Source of the DNA: Oceanospirillaceae bacterium
Lineage (GTDB): Bacteria > Pseudomonadota > Gammaproteobacteria > Pseudomonadales > Oceanobacteraceae
NCBI GenBank assembly: GCA_002724925.1
Contig: PBQA01000019.1
Span: 1 to 38,369 of the forward strand
Direction of reading: 5' to 3'
DNA length: 38,369 bases
In this document: positions 2,336 through 17,150 of the stretch, piece after piece
Layout: each line of letters starts with the position of its first letter
How positions within the stretch are numbered: the first letter of the stretch is position 1
The notes under the pieces: generated by a model
Database searches by the model: none
Seen by the model: only the letters and a program-made list of their open reading frames with translations
Told to the model about the DNA's origin: nothing
Position numbers and translations under genes: made by a program

Positions 2336-3043
2336 CTATAGAATGGTTAATCCGGTCACGTACAGAACCTCACCCGGTGCTCCGGTGACAGAGCCCCCCG
2401 GCGCCTCAAGACTGACGGCAACTGCTTTGATCGCTATATCGTGAGTATTCACGGCAAGCGTGCGTGTGATGCGACCGTCTTCTGGCATCAAGCCCAGTGA
2501 CACTGGCGCACTGCCGTCTTCTGGCACAATCCACAATTCATAATCATGCTCATCAGACGGCTGTACGGCGTTGGTTGCCTGTACCGTCAGCTCATTGCCT
2601 GCCACTTCCATCAACCAGAGCGGCTGTTCATCCTGAGTGAACACAGCGACCTGCTCGATCATTGTCTCTGGTATGCCCCCAGGAGCGACCGTAGGCTCAG
2701 GGCGCATTAAGAACACACCGATTAACAGCACTGCGGCGGTCGCAAAGCCACCCGTCCAGGCCATCACGCCTTTGCTCTGAGGCTCATCGTTGGCCGCATT
2801 TTGCGTGGTATCGATAAAGCCGATACGGCGGCTGATTTCCTGCCACACTCTTTCAGGCGGCTGTTGAGCTTCGATACGGCCATTCATTGGCGCAAGCAGC
2901 TGCTCCCAGTGCCATACCCGTTCACGCACTTTCTGGTAGGCCTGCATCAAACGCACAAAACGGCGGCGAGCCTGCCCCTGCATGGTCCCCATGACATAGT
3001 CTGCCGCCAGCGCATCGAGACGTTCGTCATTTAAATAATTCAT
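2336..3043 (-). CDS. Anti-sigma factor, RskA-like
   Basis: 235-residue membrane-anchored anti-sigma factor predicted to hold the partner ECF sigma factor inactive. The N-terminal cytoplasmic part carries the typical anti-sigma pattern (ALAADYVMGTMQGQARRRF at about 10-30, and PPERVWQEISRRIG at about 62-75). One membrane helix is at about 93-112 (FATAAVLLIGVFLM). The C-terminal periplasmic part matches the RskA C-terminal domain (YELWIVPEDGSAPVSLGLM at about 168-186). Its ATG overlaps the sigma factor stop as ATGA, the usual arrangement for a co-translated pair. The signal sensed is unknown; RskA-type proteins are released by regulated proteolysis. Confidence 0.92.
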   Translation of the reverse strand: MNYLNDERLDALAADYVMGTMQGQARRRFVRLMQAYQKVRERVWHWEQLLAPMNGRIEAQQPPERVWQEISRRIGFIDTTQNAANDEPQSKGVMAWTGGFATAAVLLIGVFLMRPEPTVAPGGIPETMIEQVAVFTQDEQPLWLMEVAGNELTVQATNAVQPSDEHDYELWIVPEDGSAPVSLGLMPEDGRITRTLAVNTHDIAIKAVAVSLEAPGGSVTGAPGEVLYVTGLTIL

Positions 3044-3576
3044 TCTTCAAGACACCTCTTCAGACGTTGAAGGCCACGACGTATCCAACTTTTCACGGTA
3101 CCGAGTGGCGTTCCCGTGTGCTCCTGGATCTCTGCGTGGGTCAATCCGCGATAGTACGCCAGGTGGATATACTGCAGATCATGTGTATCAAGCGTTTCCA
3201 TGCAACGCTCCAGAGCCTGGTTTTCAGGATCCTCTGGTTGCTCCGGTGCGATCAGTTCCGGCGCCCCCTCCTCATCGAGAGAATCCTGTCGGTCCTCCTT
3301 TGCGCTTTTTGACCTGAGCAGATCGATACATCGATAACGTACGATACTGCTCATCCAGGTCATGACGCTGCCACGTCCCTGGTGATAGTCCCCAGCGTTG
3401 TGCCAGATTTTAACGAAGGCTTCCTGTAACGCCTCTTCAGCCCGTTCAGGCGATCGCATGAGTTGCATAGCGACACCGTATAACTTCGGCCCCGTCACCT
3501 GGTACAACTCCTCAAACGCTGGTCGCTCACCGCGCGCCACCGCCCTGATCAGCTGTAGCTGAAATTCTGGATCCAT
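3040..3576 (-). CDS. ECF-family RNA polymerase sigma factor
   Basis: 178-residue group 4 sigma factor. Sigma region 2 covers about 20-90, including the -10 recognition helix area (GRGSVMTWMSSIVRYRCIDLLR), and region 4 about 115-175 with the helix-turn-helix GLTHAEIQEHTGTPLGTVKSWIRRGLQRL. There is an acidic linker between them. It resembles the SigK/RpoE-like ECF sigmas paired with RskA anti-sigmas. ATG at 3576 is preceded by AAAGGAGTC. It probably controls its own promoter and may control the nearby DUF4331 gene, since the two upstream regions share short motifs; that link is inference. Confidence 0.95.
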   Translation of the reverse strand: MDPEFQLQLIRAVARGERPAFEELYQVTGPKLYGVAMQLMRSPERAEEALQEAFVKIWHNAGDYHQGRGSVMTWMSSIVRYRCIDLLRSKSAKEDRQDSLDEEGAPELIAPEQPEDPENQALERCMETLDTHDLQYIHLAYYRGLTHAEIQEHTGTPLGTVKSWIRRGLQRLKRCLEE

Positions 3577-3611
3577 ACAGAATGACTCCTTTAATGATAG
3601 ATATAGCTATA

Positions 3612-3641
3612 TACGGACAGTCTGTGTTTTCAGATTAGATG
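3612..3641 (-). promoter_or_regulatory. Candidate ECF-type promoter upstream of the sigma gene
   Basis: Reading the minus strand, CATCTAAT (3634-3641) is followed after 18 bases by CGTATA (ending near 3610). CGTA-type -10 elements are typical of ECF promoters. The same CATCTAAT octamer and a CCGTACA element occur upstream of the DUF4331 gene, but with 13-base spacing. Weak evidence. Confidence 0.3.
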
Positions 3642-3740: not shown

Positions 3741-4061
3741 ATGAATACCGAAAGAATACGCACCGACCTACTCGAGCGACTTGAAGCGTTGGAAGCACGA
3801 TCTGAAAAGGCAGCGCGCCATGCCAGCCACCGGGATGAGCCGTTGTCTGCTGACTTTGAAGAGCAAGCAGCTGAGTCCGCGAACGACGAAGTGCTTAATG
3901 TCATTGCCGACGAGGCGCGGCATGAAGCGGATCACATACGGGATGCCTTGAAGCGCATCGCCCTTGGTCAATACGGCGTCTGTGACCAGTGTGGCGACCA
4001 GATTACCGAAGCGCGTCTGATCGCCGTTCCTTACAGCACGCGCTGCATTGAGTGCGCATAA
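3741..4061 (+). CDS. Short DksA/TraR-family zinc-finger protein
   Basis: 106-residue protein with an N-terminal charged coiled coil (residues about 1-70) and a C-terminal four-cysteine zinc finger: C81-x2-C84 and C102-x2-C105. DksA/TraR proteins enter the RNA polymerase secondary channel and alter promoter kinetics. At 106 residues it is shorter than E. coli DksA (151) and closer to the small TraR-like and plant-type DksA paralogues. Acidic residues at the coiled-coil turn (SADFEEQAAE, about 36-46) partly resemble the functional tip. ATG at 3741 has AGGGGGATCC upstream. It is divergent from the ECF sigma operon and convergent with the HupE gene, 24 bp from its end. Confidence 0.88.
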   Translation: MNTERIRTDLLERLEALEARSEKAARHASHRDEPLSADFEEQAAESANDEVLNVIADEARHEADHIRDALKRIALGQYGVCDQCGDQITEARLIAVPYSTRCIECA

Positions 4062-4085: not shown

Positions 4086-5189
4086 TCAGATCCGCGCCAA
4101 GACCCAGTAGCTACCCAATGCCGCCAGCGCCGCCGACAGATACCGTACCAACACTTGTCGATACCAGCCGAGACGTCTCAGGCTGATGAGCAGAGGCATC
4201 ACCAGCAGAGTAATGGCAACCTGTCCTGCCTCAACGCCCAGGTTAAAGCCAAAGAGAGCCCAGGCGATATTGCCTGTTCCTGTTGTCAATTCACTGAGTA
4301 CGCTCGCAAAACCAAACCCGTGAACCAGGCCAAACAGGAAGACGACGACCGCACTGGCTGGCAAATACGGACGCAGATTGTGCAGCGCCGCGACGACAAC
4401 AGACGCCGCAATAATCAGCTCAACCCAGTAGCCGGGAAGCGCCAGCCAACCCAGGGCACTGGCACTCAGTGTCAGAGAGTGGGCAACAGTAAAGGTCGTC
4501 ACATAAAGAAGCGCCGTTTTAACACAAGTACGGACATCAGCCGCTGGCTGCCAGTGTGTTTTCTGCTGAACAAGTACCGACACCAGTAGCAGCGTCAGCA
4601 AAAACGCGACATGATCCGGCCCCAGTAAGATATGAATAACGCCCTGTACGAAAAATTCCGCAAACGTCTGCTTGTTCAATTCGCCGGTGGTCATTTCTGA
4701 ATTAATAGAAAAGCTACCTGAAGCTTCCAGAACCCCCTGACGACTCTGATCGCCTACAGATAAATTCCACAGAAGGCGATGCTCGGGAAGCAGCGAGAAG
4801 AATCCGCTGTATGACACCTCAATGTTCCCTTCAGTACTACAGACATACGTCACCGGAACAATGGCCGACGCCATAGCACCGCGCGCATTATTAAATCTCA
4901 GAGGAACACTGAACTGTGGTGCACAGGCTTCGCCACCCTGTTGCACACTAAGATGACGCTCGACGTAGGTGCGTATCTCTGGAGTCATGGCTTTTACCTC
5001 GCCCCAAAGTAATTCACCATCGCGATTCTGGTCGAGCCCCAGGCTCTGCTCCAGATCAATCAATTGCCACTGCACAGAACCGCGTAATCCGTCCGTTGTT
5101 TCTTTCAGTGTCAGTAGCGCGGTACTGCTTTGATGTGCGAATGCTGTAACAGGAAAAAGCGTAAGCAGCAGAAGAAAAAGACGTCTCAT
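4086..5189 (-). CDS. HupE/UreJ-family membrane protein with periplasmic EF-hand
   Basis: 367 residues. A signal peptide (1-18, ending TAFA-H) is followed by a periplasmic domain of about 165 residues, then six or seven membrane helices from about 185. The membrane part carries the HupE/UreJ_2 signatures HILLGPDHVAFLL, TVAHSLTL and VHGFGFASVL, whose histidines and aspartate are thought to bind metal in this family (Ni or Co uptake in relatives). The periplasmic domain contains a textbook 12-residue EF-hand loop, DQNRDGELLWGE (D53, N55, D57, G58, L60, E64), suggesting Ca2+ binding. The start overlaps the upstream gene as ATGA, so the two are co-translated. The transported substrate cannot be read from sequence. 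Confidence 0.85.
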   Translation of the reverse strand: MRRLFLLLLTLFPVTAFAHQSSTALLTLKETTDGLRGSVQWQLIDLEQSLGLDQNRDGELLWGEVKAMTPEIRTYVERHLSVQQGGEACAPQFSVPLRFNNARGAMASAIVPVTYVCSTEGNIEVSYSGFFSLLPEHRLLWNLSVGDQSRQGVLEASGSFSINSEMTTGELNKQTFAEFFVQGVIHILLGPDHVAFLLTLLLVSVLVQQKTHWQPAADVRTCVKTALLYVTTFTVAHSLTLSASALGWLALPGYWVELIIAASVVVAALHNLRPYLPASAVVVFLFGLVHGFGFASVLSELTTGTGNIAWALFGFNLGVEAGQVAITLLVMPLLISLRRLGWYRQVLVRYLSAALAALGSYWVLARI

Positions 5190-6268
5190 AATAAATCTCC
5201 CTGTACGGCGACATATTGATACTTCTGAGCATTATTTACTTGCGACAGCCAACTCAGATTACGCGATTCTGCGTTTTTTCCGACCGTTGAAAAGTACAAT
5301 GAAATCAACTCTGAGTAGCTTGTATCGCGACGTTTAATGCGCTGGGTGATACGCTCTTCTGCGTACTCTCTCCAGTAGAAGTCGGCACTTTCGCTTTGCT
5401 GCTCAGCACGCGCAAGCTGAACGATCAGAGCGTCATCCGGGTAGTCCTCGTGGCCATATCGCTGTAGCAGAGAAGTCACCTGTGCTGGTTTGTCGTTTCT
5501 CAGCAGTGCTTCGCTTCGGTTTACCAAATCAGCAACACTCAAAAGCGCATCATCTGACCATCGTTGGTACAGCGCTTCTACCTGCTCATACTTGCCTTCA
5601 TTGAGGTAGCTTTTCGCTTTATGGTACAGAGCCCACGCTGTCAGGCTACGACCTTGCGGTGAGTCATCACTGCTCAGACGTTCGAGCTGAGCGGTGAGAA
5701 TGCCGTGCCCTGCAGAGCCGGCAGTCTCCTGTAAACCAATACTGCATACAGCAGCGAGGTCTGACTGCTCAAGCATAATAGACACGCATGCCTCGCGAGC
5801 AGCCTTCTGTTGATTTTGTTCACCATACACCTGCGCCATCATCAGGCGAGCACTACTAAAAAATACAGAACCTGGATCAATTTTCTGAAGCAGAGCGGCG
5901 GCTCTGGCAAATTCATGTCGGTGCTGTAAAAGACGTGCGCGGTAGTAGGTTAACTCATCCGCGCCTACTCCCGATGCTGCAATTTTCTGTGCCGTCAAAC
6001 CATCCATCAGAACGTAAATACGGTCGTAGCGCCAAGATTCGCCGGGCTTGTCGGCAAGCGTAAAGTGCTTTCTTATTTCTTCTATGCGCTGTGCAAAAGT
6101 CTGAGGCAGCGGCTTGATTTCTTCTTTGCTCCAACGTGCAACCACCGCATTGTCATCAGGCTCAGACCAAGATGTATCAGCCATTGCAGGTGCTGCCAAA
6201 GCCGGCATTAAAATAACTGCCGTAGAAAGACCAAAACAAAGATTTTTAATTAAGCCACTGATTAACAT
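5186..6268 (-). CDS. Secreted TPR-like helical repeat protein
   Basis: 360 residues with a signal peptide (about 1-30, ending LAAPAMA). The mature part is rich in paired helices with TPR-like spacing: YYRARLLQHRHEFARAAALL at about 108-127, ARLMMAQVYGEQNQQKAA at about 138-155, and ALYHKAKSYLNEGKYEQVEALY at about 213-234. I recognise no named family beyond tetratricopeptide-like. It is coupled by an ATGA overlap to the HupE-type gene that follows, so it is probably a periplasmic scaffold or partner of that membrane protein. A terminator stands between it and the upstream lipoprotein gene. Confidence 0.75.
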   Translation of the reverse strand: MLISGLIKNLCFGLSTAVILMPALAAPAMADTSWSEPDDNAVVARWSKEEIKPLPQTFAQRIEEIRKHFTLADKPGESWRYDRIYVLMDGLTAQKIAASGVGADELTYYRARLLQHRHEFARAAALLQKIDPGSVFFSSARLMMAQVYGEQNQQKAAREACVSIMLEQSDLAAVCSIGLQETAGSAGHGILTAQLERLSSDDSPQGRSLTAWALYHKAKSYLNEGKYEQVEALYQRWSDDALLSVADLVNRSEALLRNDKPAQVTSLLQRYGHEDYPDDALIVQLARAEQQSESADFYWREYAEERITQRIKRRDTSYSELISLYFSTVGKNAESRNLSWLSQVNNAQKYQYVAVQGDLL

Positions 6269-6303
6269 AATTTTTGTCCGTTGATTTTCAGAATATCTGG
6301 TGA

Positions 6304-6331
6304 GAAAAAAACGGGGCTGCAGAACAGCCCC
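6304..6331 (-). terminator. Rho-independent terminator inside the DUF4331-HupE cluster
   Basis: On the minus strand GGGGCTG-TTCTG-CAGCCCC is followed by GTTTTTTT. It starts just 7 bp after the lipoprotein stop and lies 36 bp before the TPR gene start, so it should limit rather than abolish expression of the last two genes. Confidence 0.85.
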
Positions 6332-6337
6332 AAAAGG

Positions 6338-6595
6338 TTACTCACCCCCAGTGAGATACGAGAAAGAGAACTCGTCAGCGTCGTCAACAATTTCAAGTTC
6401 ATTTATTTTTACTGGCTCTGAATTTTCAGATGCCATGAAAATATCGTCGACCAATTCAGTGAGCAGAACTTCAGTCTGTTCGGCGACATTGTCATCCACG
6501 TCAGGAAGGTCGACAGTCGAATTGTTGTTGCTGCTGTCGGAGCATGCACTTAACAGTGCAATACTCCCTATCATTAATAAGTTACGCGTTTTCAT
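6338..6595 (-). CDS. Small acidic lipoprotein
   Basis: 85-residue precursor with a clear lipobox (LLSAC, lipidated Cys18) after a short basic N-terminus. The mature part of 68 residues starts with a Ser/Asn linker and is then strongly acidic (Asp/Glu rich, few basic residues), ending SYLTGGE. No known domain is recognised. The start has AGGAGTG upstream. It lies 30 bp after the DUF4331 gene and is probably co-transcribed with it. The acidic character could mean divalent-cation binding, in keeping with the acidic loops of its neighbours, but this is inference. Confidence 0.8.
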   Translation of the reverse strand: MKTRNLLMIGSIALLSACSDSSNNNSTVDLPDVDDNVAEQTEVLLTELVDDIFMASENSEPVKINELEIVDDADEFSFSYLTGGE

Positions 6596-6625
6596 ATAAC
6601 ACTCCTTACTTCACGGTTGCGGATC

Positions 6626-8161
6626 TTACGGTGCAGGGTTTACTGAACCTGCAAGTGGCGTCAGCAAGTATGGGAAGGTGTCGTTGACGTACGTCGAGTC
6701 GACAGGAGCCAGGTCTGAGAACGGCTGGTTTCCGGTTGGCGCATCAGCTGGCTCACATAGACCCAGATCGTCGGTTGCATTGCCATCACCATCAAGGTCT
6801 ACCGGATGACACAGAGCGCCCATCACGACACGCAGTGCAATATCCACAACATCATCACCAGGACGACGACCGTTAGGGAAACCAGCCAGGTCACCAGCAA
6901 CCACGCCAAAAGCACTTTGATCAGCAGAAGCCGTAGCGGCAATAGCAGTATTCAGACGCACCATTTCAGACGCGGTCACAGTCGACATCTGGTTCACGCC
7001 CGGAAAGCCCGTCAGGAAGGCAGTTACCAGATCGGTACGAGGAATATTCGACGGTGCAATGTTGTCAGAGGCACCCAGCGCATCGCGGAAAAGAATATCC
7101 AGCAAAGCAGGCAGGGTTGGATGAGTCACATAATCTGCAAACTGACCATCGTCTTTAGGTTCAGAGGCGTTAAAAGTGTCTTTATCGCTCAGCCCGATGA
7201 CAACCTCGTTCACCAGTGGCATACCCAGGCGTGATACCTGAGTCCAGGCACCGCCATTGACTTCTGGCTTAGCGAACGATGCTTCAGGGTTAAGGATACG
7301 GGCCTGCTGCTGGCTGGCGCTGGTCCAGGCACCAATCACACCATTACCAGACCCAGTGACACACGAGATCGGTACTTCCAGAGCGATAGAGGTGACATTT
7401 TTATCTGCCAGATCGTCGTTTGCATCGTCCTGTGCACTGCCATCACCATCCAGAGGGACGTAATTCACGAGGTCGAATGTTTTACCCAGATTCACGACGA
7501 ATGGGTCTTTACGCTGGCCAACAAATACCTTACCGCCCGCGTCACATCCAGGAATAGTCAGGTCGTGTACAAAACCGCCTGCGTAAGCCTCATAGTCGGT
7601 AAAAGACTTCTCACCGATATTGTCGAGTGGCTTAGTAAAGGTCGCTTCACCAGAACCGTCGGTCAGGCTGATTGCAGAACCAGTACGACGATCACCGCTG
7701 ACTTTTTTGATGCTGTAGGTTTCGTAGAAGTTGGCGCTGCCATCGGTATCAACGTTGCCGAAGTTTTTCAGAGGAATGGCGACGCTTTTCTGATTCTCGC
7801 CTTCGCCAATCGGCAGAGCGAAACCGCTTCCCATAGCACCCAGCATCTGCTGGAAGCGGAACTGGAAGGTAATGTCTTCGACCGCGTCACCGTCATTATC
7901 GATGTGAATCTCGTACAGAGCGTTCGGGTCCATCGCGAAGTAATTTGGGCCGCCATAGGCGTCCTGCAGCGGGATATAGTTCGCAACCAGAGTCACGTAG
8001 TCTTCACGATCAGTTTCATAACTGCGGAACGCGTAGAAGTCCGTAGAGTCGATGGCCGGTAGGCGGGTAACGTTCGGTGCTTCTCGGTGACTCGAAGCGC
8101 TTGCATTCATAGCTGTCAGCGCGGTAATCGCACCGAGCAGGAGTGTGGCGTGCGTTTTCAT
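6626..8161 (-). CDS. DUF4331-family secreted protein
   Basis: 511 residues when started at ATG 8161, which has GGGAGCAG upstream and gives a normal signal peptide (1-22). An upstream in-frame ATG at 8221 would add 20 residues before the signal peptide and is disfavoured. The mature protein begins SSHREAP, the hallmark start of DUF4331 proteins, followed by DSTDFYAFRSY. Several aspartate-rich loops (IDNDGD at about 87-92, LDGDGSAQDD in the middle, LDGDGNATDD near the C-terminus) look like calcium sites. Two or more Cys are present and may form disulfides. The biochemical function of DUF4331 is not known. It begins a cluster with a lipoprotein, a TPR protein and a HupE-type membrane protein. 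Confidence 0.9.
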   Translation of the reverse strand: MKTHATLLLGAITALTAMNASASSHREAPNVTRLPAIDSTDFYAFRSYETDREDYVTLVANYIPLQDAYGGPNYFAMDPNALYEIHIDNDGDAVEDITFQFRFQQMLGAMGSGFALPIGEGENQKSVAIPLKNFGNVDTDGSANFYETYSIKKVSGDRRTGSAISLTDGSGEATFTKPLDNIGEKSFTDYEAYAGGFVHDLTIPGCDAGGKVFVGQRKDPFVVNLGKTFDLVNYVPLDGDGSAQDDANDDLADKNVTSIALEVPISCVTGSGNGVIGAWTSASQQQARILNPEASFAKPEVNGGAWTQVSRLGMPLVNEVVIGLSDKDTFNASEPKDDGQFADYVTHPTLPALLDILFRDALGASDNIAPSNIPRTDLVTAFLTGFPGVNQMSTVTASEMVRLNTAIAATASADQSAFGVVAGDLAGFPNGRRPGDDVVDIALRVVMGALCHPVDLDGDGNATDDLGLCEPADAPTGNQPFSDLAPVDSTYVNDTFPYLLTPLAGSVNPAP

Positions 8162-8206
8162 AACTGCTCCCGATTTCAGGTTCAACACGTTGTGTGTATT
8201 TACCTG

Positions 8207-8231
8207 TACGGGGCAGCTCACAAATTAGATG
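8207..8231 (-). promoter_or_regulatory. Candidate promoter motif upstream of DUF4331 gene
   Basis: The minus strand carries CATCTAAT (8224-8231) and then CCCGTACAGG, similar to the region before the ECF sigma gene but with 5 bases less between the two elements. Low confidence as a functional site. Confidence 0.25.
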
Positions 8232-8249: not shown

Positions 8250-8693
8250 TCAGACTGACGGGAACTCAGGCTCGATGATTACTTCCGAAAGCACCGAATT
8301 GGCAACGAAACAATGCTCATGCGCCTTAATGTGCATCGCCTCAACCGAAGCGTCATCCGGTATTTTCTCACCACTGAACTGCACACGAGGCCTCAATATC
8401 AGGGTTGCAATAAAGAACCTGCCATCTTCCCGCTGCGCCAGTACAGCTTCTGCTTCATCGTGATAGGACTCGACAGTCAGGCGCTTTTTTGCGGCCAGCG
8501 CGAGGAAAGTCTGCATATGACAGCTGGACATAGCCGCGGCCAGCATCTGTTCAGGATCAGCTCCGAAGTCATTGCCAGCACCACCCGCAGGCAGACCCAC
8601 CTGCGGCTGAAACGCAATATCGTGACGCCGCTCAAATCCTTCGTGAGAGAATTCGCCAACCCTCTGCCAATGAACGTCAACCTTATGTTTCAT
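8250..8693 (-). CDS. OsmC-family peroxiredoxin
   Basis: 147 residues, full length for the OsmC/Ohr family. These enzymes reduce organic hydroperoxides with two cysteines. Both are present: C58 in MSSCHMQTFL and C128 in AHEHCFVANS, along with the typical GADPEQMLAAA segment before the first cysteine. ATG at 8693 has AGGAGA five bases upstream. It lies 23 bp after the Tll0287-like gene on the same strand and 88 bp before the DUF4331 gene. Substrate subtype (Ohr, OsmC or YhfA-like) cannot be settled by eye. Confidence 0.93.
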   Translation of the reverse strand: MKHKVDVHWQRVGEFSHEGFERRHDIAFQPQVGLPAGGAGNDFGADPEQMLAAAMSSCHMQTFLALAAKKRLTVESYHDEAEAVLAQREDGRFFIATLILRPRVQFSGEKIPDDASVEAMHIKAHEHCFVANSVLSEVIIEPEFPSV

Positions 8694-8716
8694 CGTCGTC
8701 TCCTGGCAGCTGTCGA

Positions 8717-9283
8717 TTACTGCTTGTTGAAGGTGTAGGTCAGTGTGAATGCTCCGCGCAAATCGCCGGGCTTATACCCCCGCGCTTCATCTTCAGGGTA
8801 AAGCTCGCTGAGTCTGGCAGCGACCGGCTCTGCAAGCTGCTCACCATGACACACCACGCACGGTCCGCCGACAGGAATCGCTTTCATGTAGCGGAAGTGC
8901 CCGTCTTGACGAGCAGAGGCCTCCATAGTCGCCAGGTTTTCCCCTGCAGCTGCACGCTGGGCGAAGGATTCGAGCACACCAGCTTCCCACTCGTCGGGCG
9001 CATTTTCTGGATTACGGAGTTTCACCGATGTCCGACCGACCTCCCAGCCATCTTTGCTGTTCGCTGTTGCTATCTCTGGTGCTTCCGTATTGCATAAACG
9101 GATCGCCGCCAGCGGCCCCTCGGCTTTCATCCCCTGCATCAGGGTTGCTTTGAGGTCCTGAGCAAAGGCTTTTGTCTGAGTCCGAGCTTCAACCAACATA
9201 TAATCTTCGGAGCTCTCGGCGAGGACACTGCCCGACACGCAAGCCGCCGACAACAGCAGGGTCAATAGGGATATGCTTTTCAT
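8717..9283 (-). CDS. Periplasmic c-type heme protein, Tll0287-like (DUF3365)
   Basis: 188 residues: signal peptide (about 1-22, VLA-E), a Tll0287-like/DUF3365 sensor-type domain, and a single heme-attachment motif CVVCH at 142-146. The motif GxCVxCHG after a KAIPVGGP segment and the C-terminal DLRGAFTLTY are typical of the family. The heme would be attached in the periplasm by the Ccm system. The protein may sense redox or gas ligands or carry electrons; the family has no settled role. It sits between a rhodanese and an OsmC gene in a redox-flavoured run. Confidence 0.88.
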   Translation of the reverse strand: MKSISLLTLLLSAACVSGSVLAESSEDYMLVEARTQTKAFAQDLKATLMQGMKAEGPLAAIRLCNTEAPEIATANSKDGWEVGRTSVKLRNPENAPDEWEAGVLESFAQRAAAGENLATMEASARQDGHFRYMKAIPVGGPCVVCHGEQLAEPVAARLSELYPEDEARGYKPGDLRGAFTLTYTFNKQ

Positions 9284-10243: not shown

Positions 10244-11377
10244 TTAATACGTTGAATATTGGTTATCTTCAATAAAATCGGTAGTGAGACGACCCCACAT
10301 TTTGTAATAACCCCAAGCGGTGTAGCTGAGAATAATGGGGACGAAAATCATCGCCACCCAAAACATAATATGCAGTGTCAGCTGACTTGAGGTGACATCC
10401 CACATCGTCAGGGATTGCGATGGTGCAGTACTGGAAGGCATCAGGAATGGAAACAGGCTGAATCCCGCAGTACAGATGATGCCGGTAACCGCAAACGAGC
10501 TACTGATAAACGCCAGAGCGCCGCGATTCGCCATGCTGAGTACTGCGGTGAGCGCCAGGCCAGCGAACGCCATTACAGGGGCAATCAGCATCCACGGATA
10601 TCGGCCGTAGTTATCCAGCCAACCAGCGGCCTGAAGCGCAACGCTTTTCTGCAGCGGTGTTGTCACGCCACCGAGATTCGACGCCGCTTTAATAACGTAT
10701 CCATCCAGTTGGCTGACCCAGAAACCACCGATAGCAAAGGCCACAGCAACCACCACAGCTAACAGAACTGAAATGCGGCGGGCGCGTTCGTGTACCAGCC
10801 CTGCTGTACGCATTTGCAGGTACGTCCCTCCATGCATCGCCAGCATCAGTAAACTCACTACCCCGCACAGCAAGGCGAAAGGATTAAGTAATGCCCAGAA
10901 AGAACCGGTGTACGTTGAACGCATAAACTCATCCAACGTAAAAGGAACGCCCAACAGCAGATTGCCGAAGGCCACACCAAACACCAACGCTGGCACAGCG
11001 CCCCCGACCGTCAATCCCCAATCCCAGGCATTTCTCCAGCGCGGATCCTGAACCTTTGAGCGATATTCAAATCCGACCGGGCGGAAAAACATGGCAAACA
11101 AGACCAACAGCAGTGCCCAGTAAAAACCGGAGAATGCCACGGCATAGACCACCGGCCAGGCAGCGAAAATCGCACCACCGGCGGTAATAAACCAAACCTG
11201 ATTACCATCCCAGTGCGGACCGATCGTGTTCATCATGACACGACGCTCAGTGTCGGTTTTACCGATCACTTTTAACAGTGCTCCAACGCCCATATCGAAG
11301 CCGTCTGTCACCGCAAAACCGATCAGTAAAACGCCAATCAGTACCCACCAGATAATTTTAAGCAGTTCGTATTCCAT
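10244..11377 (-). CDS. cydB: Cytochrome bd ubiquinol oxidase subunit II
   Basis: 378 residues from ATG 11377 (AAGGAG upstream), equal to the length of E. coli CydB; a longer frame extending upstream is not needed. The start MEYELLKIIWWVLIGVLLIGFAVTDGFDMG and the GNQVWFITAGGAIFAAWPVVYA segment are typical of CydB. Multi-helix inner membrane subunit that pairs with CydA in the quinol-oxidising, oxygen-reducing complex. It begins 10 bp after cydA. Confidence 0.98.
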   Translation of the reverse strand: MEYELLKIIWWVLIGVLLIGFAVTDGFDMGVGALLKVIGKTDTERRVMMNTIGPHWDGNQVWFITAGGAIFAAWPVVYAVAFSGFYWALLLVLFAMFFRPVGFEYRSKVQDPRWRNAWDWGLTVGGAVPALVFGVAFGNLLLGVPFTLDEFMRSTYTGSFWALLNPFALLCGVVSLLMLAMHGGTYLQMRTAGLVHERARRISVLLAVVVAVAFAIGGFWVSQLDGYVIKAASNLGGVTTPLQKSVALQAAGWLDNYGRYPWMLIAPVMAFAGLALTAVLSMANRGALAFISSSFAVTGIICTAGFSLFPFLMPSSTAPSQSLTMWDVTSSQLTLHIMFWVAMIFVPIILSYTAWGYYKMWGRLTTDFIEDNQYSTY

Positions 11378-11387
11378 GATGATCTCC

Positions 11388-12977
11388 TTACGCCTGAGCC
11401 GGTGAAGTCGAAGCAGAGTCGTTTTCCCCGGTCTGCTCCCAGTGATAACGCCCCGTGTGCAAGCTTGATGGACCAAGACGAGCAAACCGGATCATCAGGT
11501 ACATTTCTGCAATAAGAAGTAGCGTGTAAAAGCCGATAAAGCCCGCGAGACTCATATAGATATCTTCCACTGAGCGCGTAGAAACAGATAAGTGAGTTGG
11601 CAGAATACCGCCTATCGACCATGGCTGACGCCCAAACTCGGCGACGAACCAACCCATTTCGCAAGCAATCCAGGGGGCTGGCAGGGCAATAATTAATGCC
11701 CTTAATAAATATTTCTGGCGCTCGGCCGTGCCCTTAGCGCTGTAGTAAAAAGAGAGCCCAATCAATACCAGCATAATAAAGCCAAGGCCAACCATAATCC
11801 GGAAGGTCCAGAACATTGGCGCTACCCGCGGAATGGAGTTCTGCGCTGCCAGTTTGATCTGCTCTTCGGTAGCATTAACTGGATTTTCAACGTATTTTTT
11901 CAGAAGCAATCCATAACCCAGATCATCGACACGAGACCTGAATTCAGCAATGGTTGCCTCAGAACGATCACCGGCTTTAATCTGCGTCAACAGATCGTAG
12001 GCCACTATGCCGTTGCGAATTTTTATCTCATGCTCAGCAATGAGATCCTTCAAACCTTTCACTTCTTCTGTGACTGAACGGGTAGCAATCAGGCCAAGAG
12101 CATAAGGAATCTTAATCGCATAATCAGTTTCCATATTCTCCTGATCAGGAATACCAAACAAGGTAAATGCAGCTGGGGGTTCGTGGGTTTCCCACTCGGC
12201 TTCAATCGCCGCCAGCTTCACTTTCTGAACCTCACCAATTTCATAGCCCGATTCATCACCCAGAACGATAACCGACAGAATGGATGCCAGACCGAAACTG
12301 GAGGCAATGGCAAACGAGCGACGGGCGAATGGAAGATCACGCTTCTTCAGCATGTAATAGGCAGAAATAGCCAGAACAAACATAGCCCCGGTCACGTAAC
12401 CGGCGGATACCGTATGCACAAACTTAACCTGAGCCACAGGGTTAAAAATCACCTCGGAGAAGCTCATCATCTCCATGCGCATGGTATCGAAATTAAACTC
12501 GGCTCCTACTGGATTCTGCATCCAACCATTAGCGATCAGAATCCAGAGCGCCGACATATTCGAGCCAATGGCGACCAGCCAGGTCACCATCAAATGCTGC
12601 ACTTTCGTCAGGCGATCCCAACCAAAGAAGAACAGACCAATAAACGTCGATTCCAGAAAGAACGCCATCAAGCCTTCGATAGCAAGCGGAGCACCAAAAA
12701 TATCACCGACGTAATGTGAGTAGTAAGCCCAGTTAGTACCGAACTGAAACTCCATCGTCAGACCCGTGGTCACGCCCAGGGCGAAGTTAATACCGAATAA
12801 CTTCCCCCAGAACTTCACCATGTCCTGATAGACCTGCTTACCCGTCATGACATAAGCAGACTCCATGATGGCAAGAATAAAAGACAACCCGAGCGTGAGG
12901 GGCACGAAGAGAAAATGATAAAAGGCCGTAATCGCAAACTGTAACCGCGATAAATCGACCACGCTTTCACTGATCAT
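11388..12977 (-). CDS. cydA: Cytochrome bd ubiquinol oxidase subunit I
   Basis: 529 residues, close to E. coli CydA (522). It carries the heme subunit hallmarks: an N-terminal His in FYHFLFVP (H21), a second His in [12 protein letters not shown], the GRQPW motif ([10 protein letters not shown]) and the quinol-binding Q-loop ([15 protein letters not shown]). The Q-loop is the long form, so this is a canonical bd-type rather than a short-loop CIO-type enzyme. The complex reduces O2 to water with high affinity and releases scalar protons. The ATG overlaps the cydP stop as ATGA. Confidence 0.98.
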
Positions 12978-13457: not shown

Positions 13458-16400
13458 ATGACCAGTGAATTAAGGAAGCATCCGCGTTTCTCGAGCCAGG
13501 TAAATGCACGACTGATTCTGAACGACGGAAGTGGCTATGAGTGCCTGATTCAGGACTACTCCCATGCTGGCATGCGTGTTCACTGGCCCCATCAACCAAT
13601 ACCTGAGCAGCATGAACCTATGTTGCTGGAGTTGCAACTGAGTACCCCGGTCAAAGCTGAAGTCGACCTGGTTCATCAGGAACCCGGCGCTCTTGGCGTG
13701 CACGTCCACCAGGCAGATGGTCAGTTATTCCTTGATATGCAGGAATACAATCAAACGCGCGCAGGTGAAGGGTTACCCACAGAGCAACGAAACCGCTTCC
13801 GCGATATCTTTGGTCATGAAGCCAAGCTGCTGATCGAGCGTATCCCCCGCCAGTGGCTGCCAGAATTTATCGAAGCAACGTACACTAAGGCAGATTTCGC
13901 ACGCAACACAGCTGAACAACAGCTGTGGATGAAGCTCGAATCGAAGACCCGCGCTAAGGCCGATGAATTTTACCAACGCTTCAGCCAGATTCTCGAACAC
14001 CAGCTACAACGCTGGCTCGCTGGCGAGGCCAAACTCACTGACGAAAGTGACGAATACGAAGGCGCGGTTGCCCTATCACTCGTTAGACAGAGTGACTTCG
14101 AAGACTGGTTAATGGCTAAAGTCACAGCCTCGCACTTGCAGTCGTTCCTGAGTCAGGAGAGTTTTGAACTTCGTCAGCTACTGGACACCCTGTCATCAGC
14201 ACAGGTCGCAGACTGCTTTAATCCGATTGGCCCTAACACAGTGACAGAAGGATTCCGCGACTGCATTGATGCGCTTGAATTGCCCCACGAAGCACGTGAA
14301 CTCGCATTCGAGAGTTTTGAGAAAGCCACCGTCGACTTGTTGAAAGCCACGTATCAGGCCTGTATCCGCCAGATTAATATCCCAATTACCTTCCGGTATC
14401 GCAAAGCAAAGACCGTGGTCGTTGAGGTGCCAGATGCGCCCGCATCAGATACGACCAGTTCATCGGCCGCAGCGGCAACTGATGACACGAATATTCAGCA
14501 CAACCGTCGCTCAGACCCTGGGCGTCGCGGCGATTCCATGTTTGATTTTGCACGCCACCAGGGTGAGGCACAGCAGGCCTACGCCAATATCCAACAGCTG
14601 CTGACGTTGCGACTAAAGAAGGAAACGGAAGCTAATGGTCAAACGAATAGTCTGCCTGCAGCGAAGCCAGAAGCGGTATCAGAAGTTGTTGAGTCGCTCG
14701 ACACCAGCACTCCCCTGAGTGAGCAGAATATTGTCGAGCAACTGGAGCAGCAACTCGCCGAACAGGAAAAAAGCCTGCCGGAAGATACCCGCCACGCGAT
14801 TGATACGGTTGAGCAGGTAACGCGTAACCTGCTTAGCAACCCGAGCATGGCCGAATTCGTCAAGCCCAGCGTCGAACAGCTTGGCTGGCCACTGTTACGC
14901 CTGATGCTGGAAGATCCATCCCTGCTGTTCAATCCGCAACACCCGGGGCGACTGATTTTTAACCTTCTGGGGCGTCTCGGGAAAATCACCAGCTCTGGCC
15001 AGAAGCGCGTAAAGGCCGCCCTGGAAGAGATGATCGCGCCGATTCTGGAAAACCCCGGTGGCGAACCAAAGCAAATGGAAGAGCTGGTTGAAAATCTTCA
15101 GGTGCTGGTGGGTAGCGCAGAGCGTAAGGTTCGCCAGAATACAGACCGGGTCGCAGAGGCCGCCGAAGGCGAGTACCGCCTTTACATGGCGCACAAACGC
15201 GTGAACGCGTTAATTGGTCATGATACCTCGGGCCGGACACTGCCCGAATGCGTTATCCGCTGGTTGCAGGAAGGCTGGCAACAAATGCTGTGCCTGCTCT
15301 TGCTGAGAGAAGGCCCCGACAGTGCGCGCTTTAAAGGTGCAGTAAAACTCTACCGTCAGGTGATCATTTTGTTCGGCCAGAAAAATGCTGGTCGCTCAGA
15401 TCTGATGGAGAAATTTACGCCGTTGCTTAATCTCGCTCGCTCCGAACTTGATCAGCTGAACGGTCCACTGCCTCAGCATGAGCAGTGGTACAAAGAAATC
15501 ATGGAAGCGGCAAGATTACACCTCGAAGAAGGCGATCTGGAACAGGGCATCGACCTGCCTGAGTATAACGAGCCCGAAGAGGAAGAAACCGTCACCGGCA
15601 AAGGCGCCCGTCGCGTGCTGACACTTCAGGTAGGTGATCTTCTTTTACTGACAGCCACCGGACAGTCCGTCTCTGTCGCATGGATCGCTGCCGACCAGAC
15701 ACGCTATGCCTGTGTTAATCATACAGGGATGCGGGTGCACGATTACCGGTTTAACGAGCTTGCCCGAGCAATGGAAGACGGCTCAATCAAGCGAATTTAC
15801 GAGCAGGAAGAGACACCGGTCGATCAGAGTATCGACAAACTTGTACAACAGATTTATTCCGACCTCTCAGCACAGGCCAACACCGATCCACTGACGGGCC
15901 TGATTAACCGTCAGCACTTCCTCAGCCTGTTGGCTAATTCCGTTGCCGATGCTCAGAAAAGTGCCTCCGGGCACACCCTTGCAATGATCAACATTGATCA
16001 GTTTAAACTGATCAATAAAAACTACGGTGTCGAGCTGGGTGACACCTGCTTGCAGACCTTAGCGACGATCCTGCAGGAAGCTTATCCAGACGCCCTGTGC
16101 TCACGGGTGGGCAGCAATGAGTTTGCCGTACTATTGGAGAAGCATGACCTGGAGCAGGCAGAGGCAAGTGCACGCTTGGTATCTGCTCAGGTTGAGAAAG
16201 TGAAGATCGATGGTGCTGACGATGCGTTCCATATTACAGTCAGTATCGGCTTGGCGGTGTTATCCGCAGACATTACCGATGCTGCAGATTTACTTGAACG
16301 CGCCGAAATCGCCTGTCATCTGGCAAAAGAAAAAGGCACCAATCGAATCGTGCGCTACCAATACGATGACGCATCGCGCGAGCGCCACGAACTCTTTATG

Positions 16401-17150
16401 AGCTGGGGTAACCGTTTGAGCAAGGCTCTTGAATCCGATTCGCTGCATGTACTTTGCGTACCTGTTGATCCGATTCAGGCACGTTTTAAAGGCATTCTGC
16501 AATATGAAGTGACGATTGCCGTTGATGGGGATGACGCACTCGATATTCCACCGCAGGAATTTCTGCAGGCGGCTCAGAACTATAACCGGATGTACGACAT
16601 TGATCGCTGGGTAATCGACCAGGTGCTCGCCTGGATTGCTAGCAATGAAAACGTAGCCAGCACCATCGAACGCTTTATCATCCGCCTCTCCGGGCGGGCA
16701 TTCAGCGATGACTCACTGCTCGAATTTCTCACCGAGCAATCGCGCGAACATGATGTGCCTGTTGAGAAACTGTGTTTCGAGCTTAACGAAACAGCCACCA
16801 TTCACGACCTGACAGATGCCGCCGATTTCATGCATGAGGTACGGAAGTTAGGCTGCAAATTCGTACTTTCTGACTTCGGAACAGGCCAGTCTTCATACAA
16901 CTTCCTGAAAGCATTACCTGTCGACTTCGTGAAGATTGACCGCAACTTTATAGACGGCCTGCACTCCAGCTCAGCTGACTATGCGCTGATTAAGTCAATT
17001 CAGGAAATCGCCCAGTTCATGGCGAAAAAGACAATCGCTGAGCATAGTGAAAATGACGTCGTATGGGAGATTCTACGCGGTATCGGAATCGATTTCGGTT
17101 TACGCTCCGTACAACAGGCGACGCCGCTTCGCTACATGGCGGAAGTCTGA
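13458..17150 (+). CDS. PilZ-DUF1631-GGDEF-EAL protein with degenerate catalytic motifs
   Basis: 1230 residues from ATG 13458 (AAGGATCAGGGAACACT upstream); a longer frame from 13350 lacks this site. The N-terminus is PilZ-like (RKHPRFSSQVNARL, QDYSHAGMRV; about 5-95). A large helical region matching DUF1631 spans about 130-750. A GGDEF domain follows (DPLTGLINR at 808; signature changed to GSNEF at about 883). The C-terminal EAL domain (about 980-1225) has EVT in place of EAL, no Asn in the usual NLS position, SDFGTG instead of DDFGTG and AEHSEN for the late Glu motif. Synthesis and hydrolysis of c-di-GMP are therefore both unlikely; a c-di-GMP effector or scaffold is more probable. No membrane segments or signal peptide are visible. 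Confidence 0.9.
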   Translation: MTSELRKHPRFSSQVNARLILNDGSGYECLIQDYSHAGMRVHWPHQPIPEQHEPMLLELQLSTPVKAEVDLVHQEPGALGVHVHQADGQLFLDMQEYNQTRAGEGLPTEQRNRFRDIFGHEAKLLIERIPRQWLPEFIEATYTKADFARNTAEQQLWMKLESKTRAKADEFYQRFSQILEHQLQRWLAGEAKLTDESDEYEGAVALSLVRQSDFEDWLMAKVTASHLQSFLSQESFELRQLLDTLSSAQVADCFNPIGPNTVTEGFRDCIDALELPHEARELAFESFEKATVDLLKATYQACIRQINIPITFRYRKAKTVVVEVPDAPASDTTSSSAAAATDDTNIQHNRRSDPGRRGDSMFDFARHQGEAQQAYANIQQLLTLRLKKETEANGQTNSLPAAKPEAVSEVVESLDTSTPLSEQNIVEQLEQQLAEQEKSLPEDTRHAIDTVEQVTRNLLSNPSMAEFVKPSVEQLGWPLLRLMLEDPSLLFNPQHPGRLIFNLLGRLGKITSSGQKRVKAALEEMIAPILENPGGEPKQMEELVENLQVLVGSAERKVRQNTDRVAEAAEGEYRLYMAHKRVNALIGHDTSGRTLPECVIRWLQEGWQQMLCLLLLREGPDSARFKGAVKLYRQVIILFGQKNAGRSDLMEKFTPLLNLARSELDQLNGPLPQHEQWYKEIMEAARLHLEEGDLEQGIDLPEYNEPEEEETVTGKGARRVLTLQVGDLLLLTATGQSVSVAWIAADQTRYACVNHTGMRVHDYRFNELARAMEDGSIKRIYEQEETPVDQSIDKLVQQIYSDLSAQANTDPLTGLINRQHFLSLLANSVADAQKSASGHTLAMINIDQFKLINKNYGVELGDTCLQTLATILQEAYPDALCSRVGSNEFAVLLEKHDLEQAEASARLVSAQVEKVKIDGADDAFHITVSIGLAVLSADITDAADLLERAEIACHLAKEKGTNRIVRYQYDDASRERHELFMSWGNRLSKALESDSLHVLCVPVDPIQARFKGILQYEVTIAVDGDDALDIPPQEFLQAAQNYNRMYDIDRWVIDQVLAWIASNENVASTIERFIIRLSGRAFSDDSLLEFLTEQSREHDVPVEKLCFELNETATIHDLTDAADFMHEVRKLGCKFVLSDFGTGQSSYNFLKALPVDFVKIDRNFIDGLHSSSADYALIKSIQEIAQFMAKKTIAEHSENDVVWEILRGIGIDFGLRSVQQATPLRYMAEV

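Follow-up and report, generated by a model that had tools for sequence, protein, structure and literature searches.

A conserved envelope gene set

In contig PBQA01000019.1 of an Oceanospirillaceae bacterium (assembly GCA_002724925.1), which was analysed over its full 38,369 nucleotides and is called the window below, four genes on the minus strand between positions 4086 and 8161 encode a DUF4331 protein, a small acidic lipoprotein, a tetratricopeptide repeat (TPR)-like protein and a HupE_UreJ_2 permease (Table 1). The initial annotation of this DNA had described four same-strand genes of which the last two are joined by an ATGA overlap, and this layout was borne out, the overlap of the TPR-like and HupE genes lying at 5186–5189. 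The DUF4331 protein matches PF14224 with an E-value of 9e-153 (510 bits) and starts at the ATG at 8161, the listed open reading frame extending to a GTG at 8221; the permease scores 135.3 bits against PF13795 (cut-off 24.5).

Within the family, 11 of 44 genomes contain DUF4331, among them all nine searched genomes of the genus (the source genome being one); so do 31 of the 369 genomes searched from the class Gammaproteobacteria, and the GTDB genome collection encodes it in at least 548 places. Neighbourhoods were examined in two main samples. The class sample covers 30 of the 31 genomes, the window included; G355, with its match on a 4.6-kb contig, was left out, G301 was counted by its C2 locus, and for G128 the extra loci L080 and L081 did not enter the counts. 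The named loci, being the top 80 of at least 548 candidates, favour close relatives. Downstream of DUF4331 on the same strand, the 30 class loci contain HupE in 21 cases, TPR in 19 and both in 18; for the 80 named loci, the corresponding numbers are 55, 61 and 55. Where a genome has DUF4331 and HupE, the latter usually lies directly downstream, and the ATGA overlap is present in 43 of 79 TPR/HupE pairs. Neither gene lies within 5 kb downstream in 27 of the 119 class, family and named loci. These counts come from searching every reading frame with profiles that had themselves been made from the family and class loci, and, as the loci are related, the counts are not independent events. At the genome level, with genome lists compiled by hand, HupE_UreJ_2 (E ≤ 0.001) occurs in 26 of 31 genomes with DUF4331 vs 81 of 338 others (Fisher p = 4e-11). 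The co-occurrence of the DUF4331, TPR and HupE families that the initial annotation had proposed as a check is thus a widespread feature, and coincidental adjacency, the alternative considered here, is ruled out by the counts. We conclude with high confidence that the four-gene set is real and conserved; it is probably also co-regulated.

Relatives of the set are also found on plasmids. Among 31 plasmid records with a DUF4331 match, eight regions were opened: four carry DUF4331, TPR and a permease, two carry DUF4331 and TPR with no permease annotated (Miltoncostaea and Adhaeribacter), one has DUF4331 with neither (Sulfitobacter) and one is unannotated (Nonomuraea). The complete cassette is found on plasmids of Marinobacter adhaerens and Pseudoalteromonas donghaensis; a Streptomyces anulatus plasmid has the order DUF4331, TPR, nickel transporter, and a second Streptomycetaceae plasmid has DUF4331, TPR and permease with a sortase in between. 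In four Caulobacter and Sphingomonadales-type loci (L133, L145, L153 and L160), the neighbours of DUF4331 and the lipoprotein are not TPR/HupE but genes resembling those of conjugation or type IV secretion; these genes, downstream of DUF4331, are VirB4-like, VirB6-like and mostly lytic transglycosylase, as judged by eye.

Table 1. Positions of the cassette genes, their predicted motifs and the putative regulatory features in the window (aa, amino acids; ECF, extracytoplasmic function).
Feature	Position	Strand	Basis
DUF4331 protein, 511 aa, secreted	6626–8161	−	PF14224
Predicted amino-terminal Cu(II)- and Ni(II)-binding (ATCUN) motif Ser-Ser-His, DUF4331 codons 23–25, then conserved Arg-Glu-Ala-Pro	8087–8095	−	conservation; −3,−1 rule
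Calcium-type loop DNDGDAVED, DUF4331 residues 88–96	7874–7900	−	D88, G91, D92, A93, E95 and D96 at least 90% conserved
Small acidic lipoprotein, 85 aa, lipobox Cys18, conserved tail of its family	6338–6595	−	lipobox; position after DUF4331
Terminator-like hairpin in the gap between lipoprotein and TPR-like genes	6312–6332	−	hairpin followed by T run
Exported TPR-like protein, 360 aa	5186–6268	−	TPR matches below cut-off; alignment A3
HupE_UreJ_2 permease with N-terminal exported anglerase-type domain	4086–5189	−	PF13795
HupE His19 codon, first residue after predicted cleavage A18|H19	5133–5135	−	invariant in the 68 sequences of alignment A4
HupE EF-hand loop DQNRDGELLWGE, residues 53–64	4998–5033	−	loop pattern
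HupE H-x5-D-H permease motif, residues 186–193	4611–4634	−	D192 and H193 invariant, H186 at least 90% conserved
ECF sigma factor, SigK-like, Cys pair around region 4	3040–3576	−	profile matches
RskA-type anti-sigma factor, 4-nt overlap with ECF gene	2336–3043	−	PF10099 (RskA_C), 63.2 bits (cut-off 29.4)
ECF-promoter-like element ATCT-N16-CGTAC upstream of DUF4331	8206–8230	−	pattern search
Same element as ATCT-N16-CGTAT upstream of ECF gene	3611–3635	−	pattern search

A promoter-like element shared with the regulator

Genes for an ECF sigma factor and its anti-sigma factor lie within 5 kb in 17 of the 30 class loci (RskA-type in 10, ChrR-type in 7) and in 58 of the 80 named loci (RskA present in 53, ChrR in 7); the cupin anti-sigma factors of the second kind are taken to be ChrR-type from inspection of their sequences by eye. 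The sequence common to DUF4331 upstream regions is TGCATCCA...CGTAta, and the pattern ATC[CT]-N16-CGT[AT] (ATCY-N16-CGTW) derived from it was found in 82 of 115 DUF4331 upstream regions (against 10 on the reverse strand) and in 40 of 82 ECF upstream regions (against 8 on the reverse strand). Although the pattern was derived from the same sequences in which it was counted, it is checked by the reverse strand, by random 200-bp windows (49 of 2300), by shuffled sequences (30 of 2300) and by its sharp spacing, for a gap of 16 gives 82 hits, a gap of 17 gives 8, and any other at most 2. Split by regulator, the loci with the element before DUF4331 number 59 of 67 when RskA is nearby, 10 of 13 for ChrR, 2 of 3 for an ECF gene only and 11 of 32 for none.

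Within the window, the wider pattern has four matches, which is chance level (shuffle mean 3.95), and two of these stand, correctly oriented, immediately before the ECF gene and DUF4331; the narrower pattern ATCY-N16-CGTAH lists only those two in the 38-kb contig and 166 in the genome. This new element, promoter-like in form, precedes DUF4331 in most loci and both DUF4331 and the ECF gene in the window, which supports the suggestion of the initial annotation that the adjacent ECF/RskA pair controls the cassette. Since the element is shared by RskA and ChrR loci, two unrelated types of anti-sigma factor appear to control one cassette through one type of promoter, and the cassette suggests itself as a target of these recurring ECF/RskA or ECF/ChrR pairs.

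The ECF factor of the window scores 147 bits against the NCBIfam SigK model PRK09646, below the cut-off of 226. A Cys pair around region 4 is present in 67 of 68 RskA-linked ECF factors, by a loose position rule, including that of the window, and in none of 13 ChrR-linked ones; judged by this framing pair, the window protein is a candidate SigK-like factor of ECF18/ECF19. The Cys pair and the RskA_C anti-sigma factor recall the SigK/RskA system of Mycobacterium tuberculosis, and the ChrR-type cupin proteins of other DUF4331 loci recall RpoE/ChrR. In excerpts of PMC7509140, a region-4 Cys pair is discussed for SigK, and the SigK regulon named there includes mpt70/mpt83, not DUF4331; the element shared by the DUF4331 loci is the one given above.

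The N-terminus of the DUF4331 protein

The DUF4331 family is strongly conserved from the sequence Ser-Ser-His-Arg-Glu-Ala-Pro onwards, with H25, A28 and P29 invariant. This motif was located in 115 of 120 relatives, five being set aside in which it was not located (truncated, extended or divergent sequences), and it begins with Ser-Ser-His in 111 of the 115. Cleavage by signal peptidase just before the motif agrees with the −3,−1 rule in all 115; the strict form [AV]-x-A stands at this register in 80 sequences and in at most 6 at any other register tested. As the Xaa-Xaa-His search motif already contains the histidine, this comparison tests the cleavage rule and not the histidine. If the protein is cleaved at the predicted site, mature DUF4331 would begin with Xaa-Xaa-His, which at a free N-terminus constitutes an ATCUN motif and favours Cu(II) and Ni(II). 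That DUF4331 itself carries such a predicted metal-binding start is new.

Further along the protein, the conservation of residues 88–96 suggests that this loop may bind calcium. An AlphaFold2 (AF2) model of DUF4331 (pLDDT 89.7, pTM 0.89) showed no clear relative when compared with the PDB. In Streptomyces (L182: 537–2147, 5896–7545 and 8821–9477), DUF4331 proteins end in a hydrophobic segment followed by a run of Arg, and the DUF4331 genes there adjoin sortase and fasciclin genes, which hints at anchoring to the cell surface.

The permease and its exported domain

The N-terminal domain of the window HupE is modelled as an exported beta-sandwich that matches the fold of a copper-binding anglerase (PDB 9GCE), the next best matches being zinc-binding ZrgA and PA4063, periplasmic zinc proteins that, unlike HupE, are not known to be fused to a permease. 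Placed by the −3,−1 rule only, signal-peptide cleavage would leave a His at the N-terminus. Ang-1, the anglerase of HupE/UreJ-2 proteins, was published in October 2025 for RbAng-1a, the protein of 9GCE, which gained stability with Cu and Ni and lost a little with Zn, Fe, Mn and Co (PMC12537917). The window HupE resembles it in fold and in the predicted N-terminal His; the two differ in that the aligned 9GCE sequence lacks an EF-hand loop, whereas DUF4331-linked HupE proteins mostly have the loop, together with a conserved Cys pair (C89/C117) and His137. A profile of 68 HupE sequences failed to retrieve 9GCE at E 1, whereas a HupE encoded upstream of its DUF4331 gene (L114) retrieved it at 6.5e-27.

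The loop of the window protein, D53-QNRDGELLWG-E64, fits the 12-residue EF-hand pattern D-x-[ND]-x-D-G...E; the Pfam EF-hand models found no match in this protein at E 0.1. A looser loop pattern was found in 67 of 73 DUF4331-linked permeases and in none of 14 controls, these being the ones scored by pattern among 20 unlinked HupE_UreJ_2 proteins, of which the other six were not parsed. The idea that the loop is a general HupE trait found no support, no loop being seen by eye in the first 170 residues of the 20 unlinked proteins. Around those 20 genes there was no TPR or DUF4331 match and a single ECF match (47 bits). The EF-hand-type loop, as a sequence pattern, is therefore a new mark of DUF4331-linked HupE. 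In nine loci, HupE lacks the permease part altogether.

The permease part of the window protein contains the HupE motif H-x5-D-H as H186-ILLGP-D192-H193. A second HupE motif is FHG-x-[AV]-HG-x-E; the window protein reads FGLVHGFGF. Hydrogenase-linked HupE proteins are not known to have a large N-terminal exported domain and sit in hydrogenase clusters. The HupE of Rhizobium leguminosarum, a nickel permease as cited in PMC12537917, belongs to the same family and is likened to the window protein by the H-x5-D-H motif; unlike it, the cassette has no hydrogenase association, and a search of the source genome for NiFe hydrogenase gave no match. In Streptomycetaceae, the gene that follows DUF4331 and TPR, with overlaps of 4 nt, encodes a NicO/RcnA-type transporter with an N-terminal 'HPLGN' domain. 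It shares with the window HupE the N-terminal His and the EF loop, and differs in belonging to another permease family (PF03824) and in having a His-rich loop.

The initial annotation had put the system forward as a candidate undescribed one. This holds insofar as no paper naming DUF4331 or PF14224 was found in the literature searched, which left subscription papers and supplements outside and from which DUF4198 was retrieved in the same way; among the matches listed for HupE, ECF, anti-sigma factor and tetratricopeptide together, each contained only three of the four. The class to which the HupE N-domain belongs, on the other hand, was described in PMC12537917, the main text of which names neither DUF4331 nor TPR. 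For the anglerase permeases, our results would add candidate partners and a candidate regulator.

The lipoprotein and the TPR-like protein

The lipoprotein has a lipobox (LLSAC) and a net negative charge, and no Pfam family matched it. In 94 of 110 loci, compared with 3 of 110 on the opposite strand, an open reading frame with a lipobox begins no more than 250 nt from the stop of DUF4331, and it follows DUF4331 in 73 of 83 loci with TPR/HupE nearby and in 21 of 27 without. The lipoprotein is thus a constant partner of DUF4331, which is a new finding. Its conserved part is the tail, with the consensus F...vr.af.q..t.ePl.vngr.ft.d...p.afddLl; a longer form of about 155–194 aa is found in 35 named loci, and the one example tested contains a Big_9/cadherin-like domain. 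A strong terminator-like hairpin (6332 to 6312, read on the minus strand, then a T run) divides the set into DUF4331-lipoprotein and TPR-HupE, and a hairpin of this kind is found after the lipoprotein gene in 32 of 76 loci vs 18 of 1520 shuffles. From this hairpin we infer that DUF4331 and the lipoprotein may be made in excess over the TPR-like protein and the permease.

All Pfam TPR models scored the window protein below their curated cut-offs (best 21.8 vs 27 bits). Its positional counterparts in two Streptomycetaceae, Adhaeribacter and Miltoncostaea (Actinomycetota and Bacteroidota) pass the TPR cut-off, and in the alignment of the TPR-like proteins (A3, n = 23) H118, C161, C175 and W212 are invariant.

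A possible role in metal capture

With Xaa-Xaa-His on DUF4331 and His on HupE, two proteins of the same cassette would present a metal-binding motif at the N-terminus. These predicted motifs, and the resemblance in fold between the HupE N-domain and a copper-binding domain, support a metal-handling role, one of the alternatives that the initial annotation had put forward, and a transition-metal role is likely. A rival reading dispenses with metal transport: DUF4331 would be a calcium-stabilised surface or matrix protein with a lipoprotein anchor and a TPR assembly factor, and the HupE-like protein would move protons, thiols or another solute. Against this, the predicted signal peptide is directly followed by an invariant His in HupE and by Xaa-Xaa-His in DUF4331, in the Actinomycetota and Bacteroidota sequences read as well, and the permeases seen are of HupE and NicO types; we therefore consider a metal-independent cassette improbable.

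On balance, we lean towards an envelope cassette under ECF sigma control, one that captures a transition metal, most likely copper or nickel, and passes it to an inner-membrane permease. An ECF factor held by a redox-type anti-sigma factor (RskA here, ChrR elsewhere) would be released and would switch on both the DUF4331 operon and the gene that encodes it through the ATCY-N16-CGTW elements observed. Secreted DUF4331 would bind Cu(II) or Ni(II) at its predicted Ser-Ser-His N-terminus and may be kept at the envelope through the acidic lipoprotein or, in Streptomyces, by its C-terminal anchor and sortase. Gene order and fold class suggest the exported TPR protein as an adaptor between DUF4331 and the permease. 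The N-terminal-His domain of HupE, braced by the EF-hand, would then take the metal and feed its own H-x5-D-H permease; this handover is proposed because of the fold match and the published metal binding of the relative. A specific TonB-dependent receptor may, in some genomes, carry the metal over the outer membrane and complete the route. Each of these handover steps is our inference. The binding published for the related domain speaks for copper and the permease types for nickel, and we favour neither over the other.

Urease (E < 1e-40) is associated with DUF4331, occurring in 17 of 31 DUF4331 genomes, including the source genome, vs 68 of 338 others; hydrogenase (E < 1e-100) is not, with 6 of 31 vs 64 of 338, and nickel superoxide dismutase is rare, with 3 of 31 vs 6 of 338. 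This comparison, which uses hand-compiled lists and counts, was made without control for genome size or lifestyle, and no firm conclusion is drawn from it.

The same components could serve defence against metal stress, with an ECF factor that senses redox or metal damage and with excess copper or nickel sequestered in the envelope by DUF4331 and the N-His domain and exported by the permease. The ECF/anti-sigma pairs are of stress-related types, and the Streptomyces permease scores best against the nickel/cobalt efflux model PRK10019 (117 bits, below the cut-off of 195). In addition, the TonB receptor gene is followed by one for a glutathione peroxidase in an Arsukibacterium locus (L106, by Pfam) and in three Arsukibacterium/Rheinheimera loci (L084, L089 and L113, by membership of cluster c19), at about 15860–16463. 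One subfamily of TonB-dependent receptor, however, lies near 21 of the 80 named loci, which fits uptake, although near only 1 of the 30 class loci, and the nine loci with a permease-less HupE would have no exporter in the cassette. Uptake is thus the more likely purpose, and we regard defence as a rather unlikely one.

Uptake of zinc, cobalt or iron instead of copper or nickel is a very improbable variant. ATCUN sites prefer Cu(II) and Ni(II), and neither Zn, Fe nor Co stabilised RbAng-1a. In its favour are the next best fold matches, ZrgA and PA4063, and the DUF4198-type genes in six DUF4331 loci (cluster c15: L124, L131, L132, L135, L138 and L140), of which the two tested, L124 and L138, are DUF4198. 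DUF4198-type genes are reported alongside TonB receptors in Alteromonas gene neighbourhoods that respond to iron (PMC7190382) and in a Caulobacter zur-mutant data set (PMC4176598); DUF4198 is also described as a nickel-binding family (PMC12537917).

More tentatively, we speculate on a specific form of the copper/nickel capture cassette that is possible but that we would not expect to hold in full. DUF4331 would be the founding member of a new kind of metal-acquisition system, a secreted protein of unassigned fold with a processed N-terminus that serves as an ATCUN trap for Cu or Ni, tethered by the lipoprotein and linked by TPR to an EF-hand-braced 'angling' permease, under either of two unrelated redox anti-sigma factors and one promoter; this arrangement would be shared by Proteobacteria, Actinomycetota and Bacteroidota, which would differ in the permease module (HupE, NicO, or a TonB receptor plus a free angling domain). 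A regulated metal cassette and the N-terminal motif give DUF4331, a family of unknown function, a simple binding test.

Neighbouring genes

Between the HupE gene and the ECF/RskA pair lies a DksA/TraR zinc-finger gene on the plus strand (3741–4061), and a related gene occupies the same place in three other loci (L042, L043 and L047; cluster c12). Directly upstream of DUF4331, on the same strand, are OsmC-family and Tll0287-like genes (8250–9283), relatives of which lie beside the cassette in a few loci of the family (cluster c16, 3 loci; cluster c13, 4 loci, the window included). A minus-strand open reading frame at 873–2111 encodes 412 aa with a hydrophobic C-terminal part and has no Pfam or NCBIfam match. 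Two genes at 10244–12977, further upstream of the cassette, resemble cytochrome bd oxidase subunits by eye.

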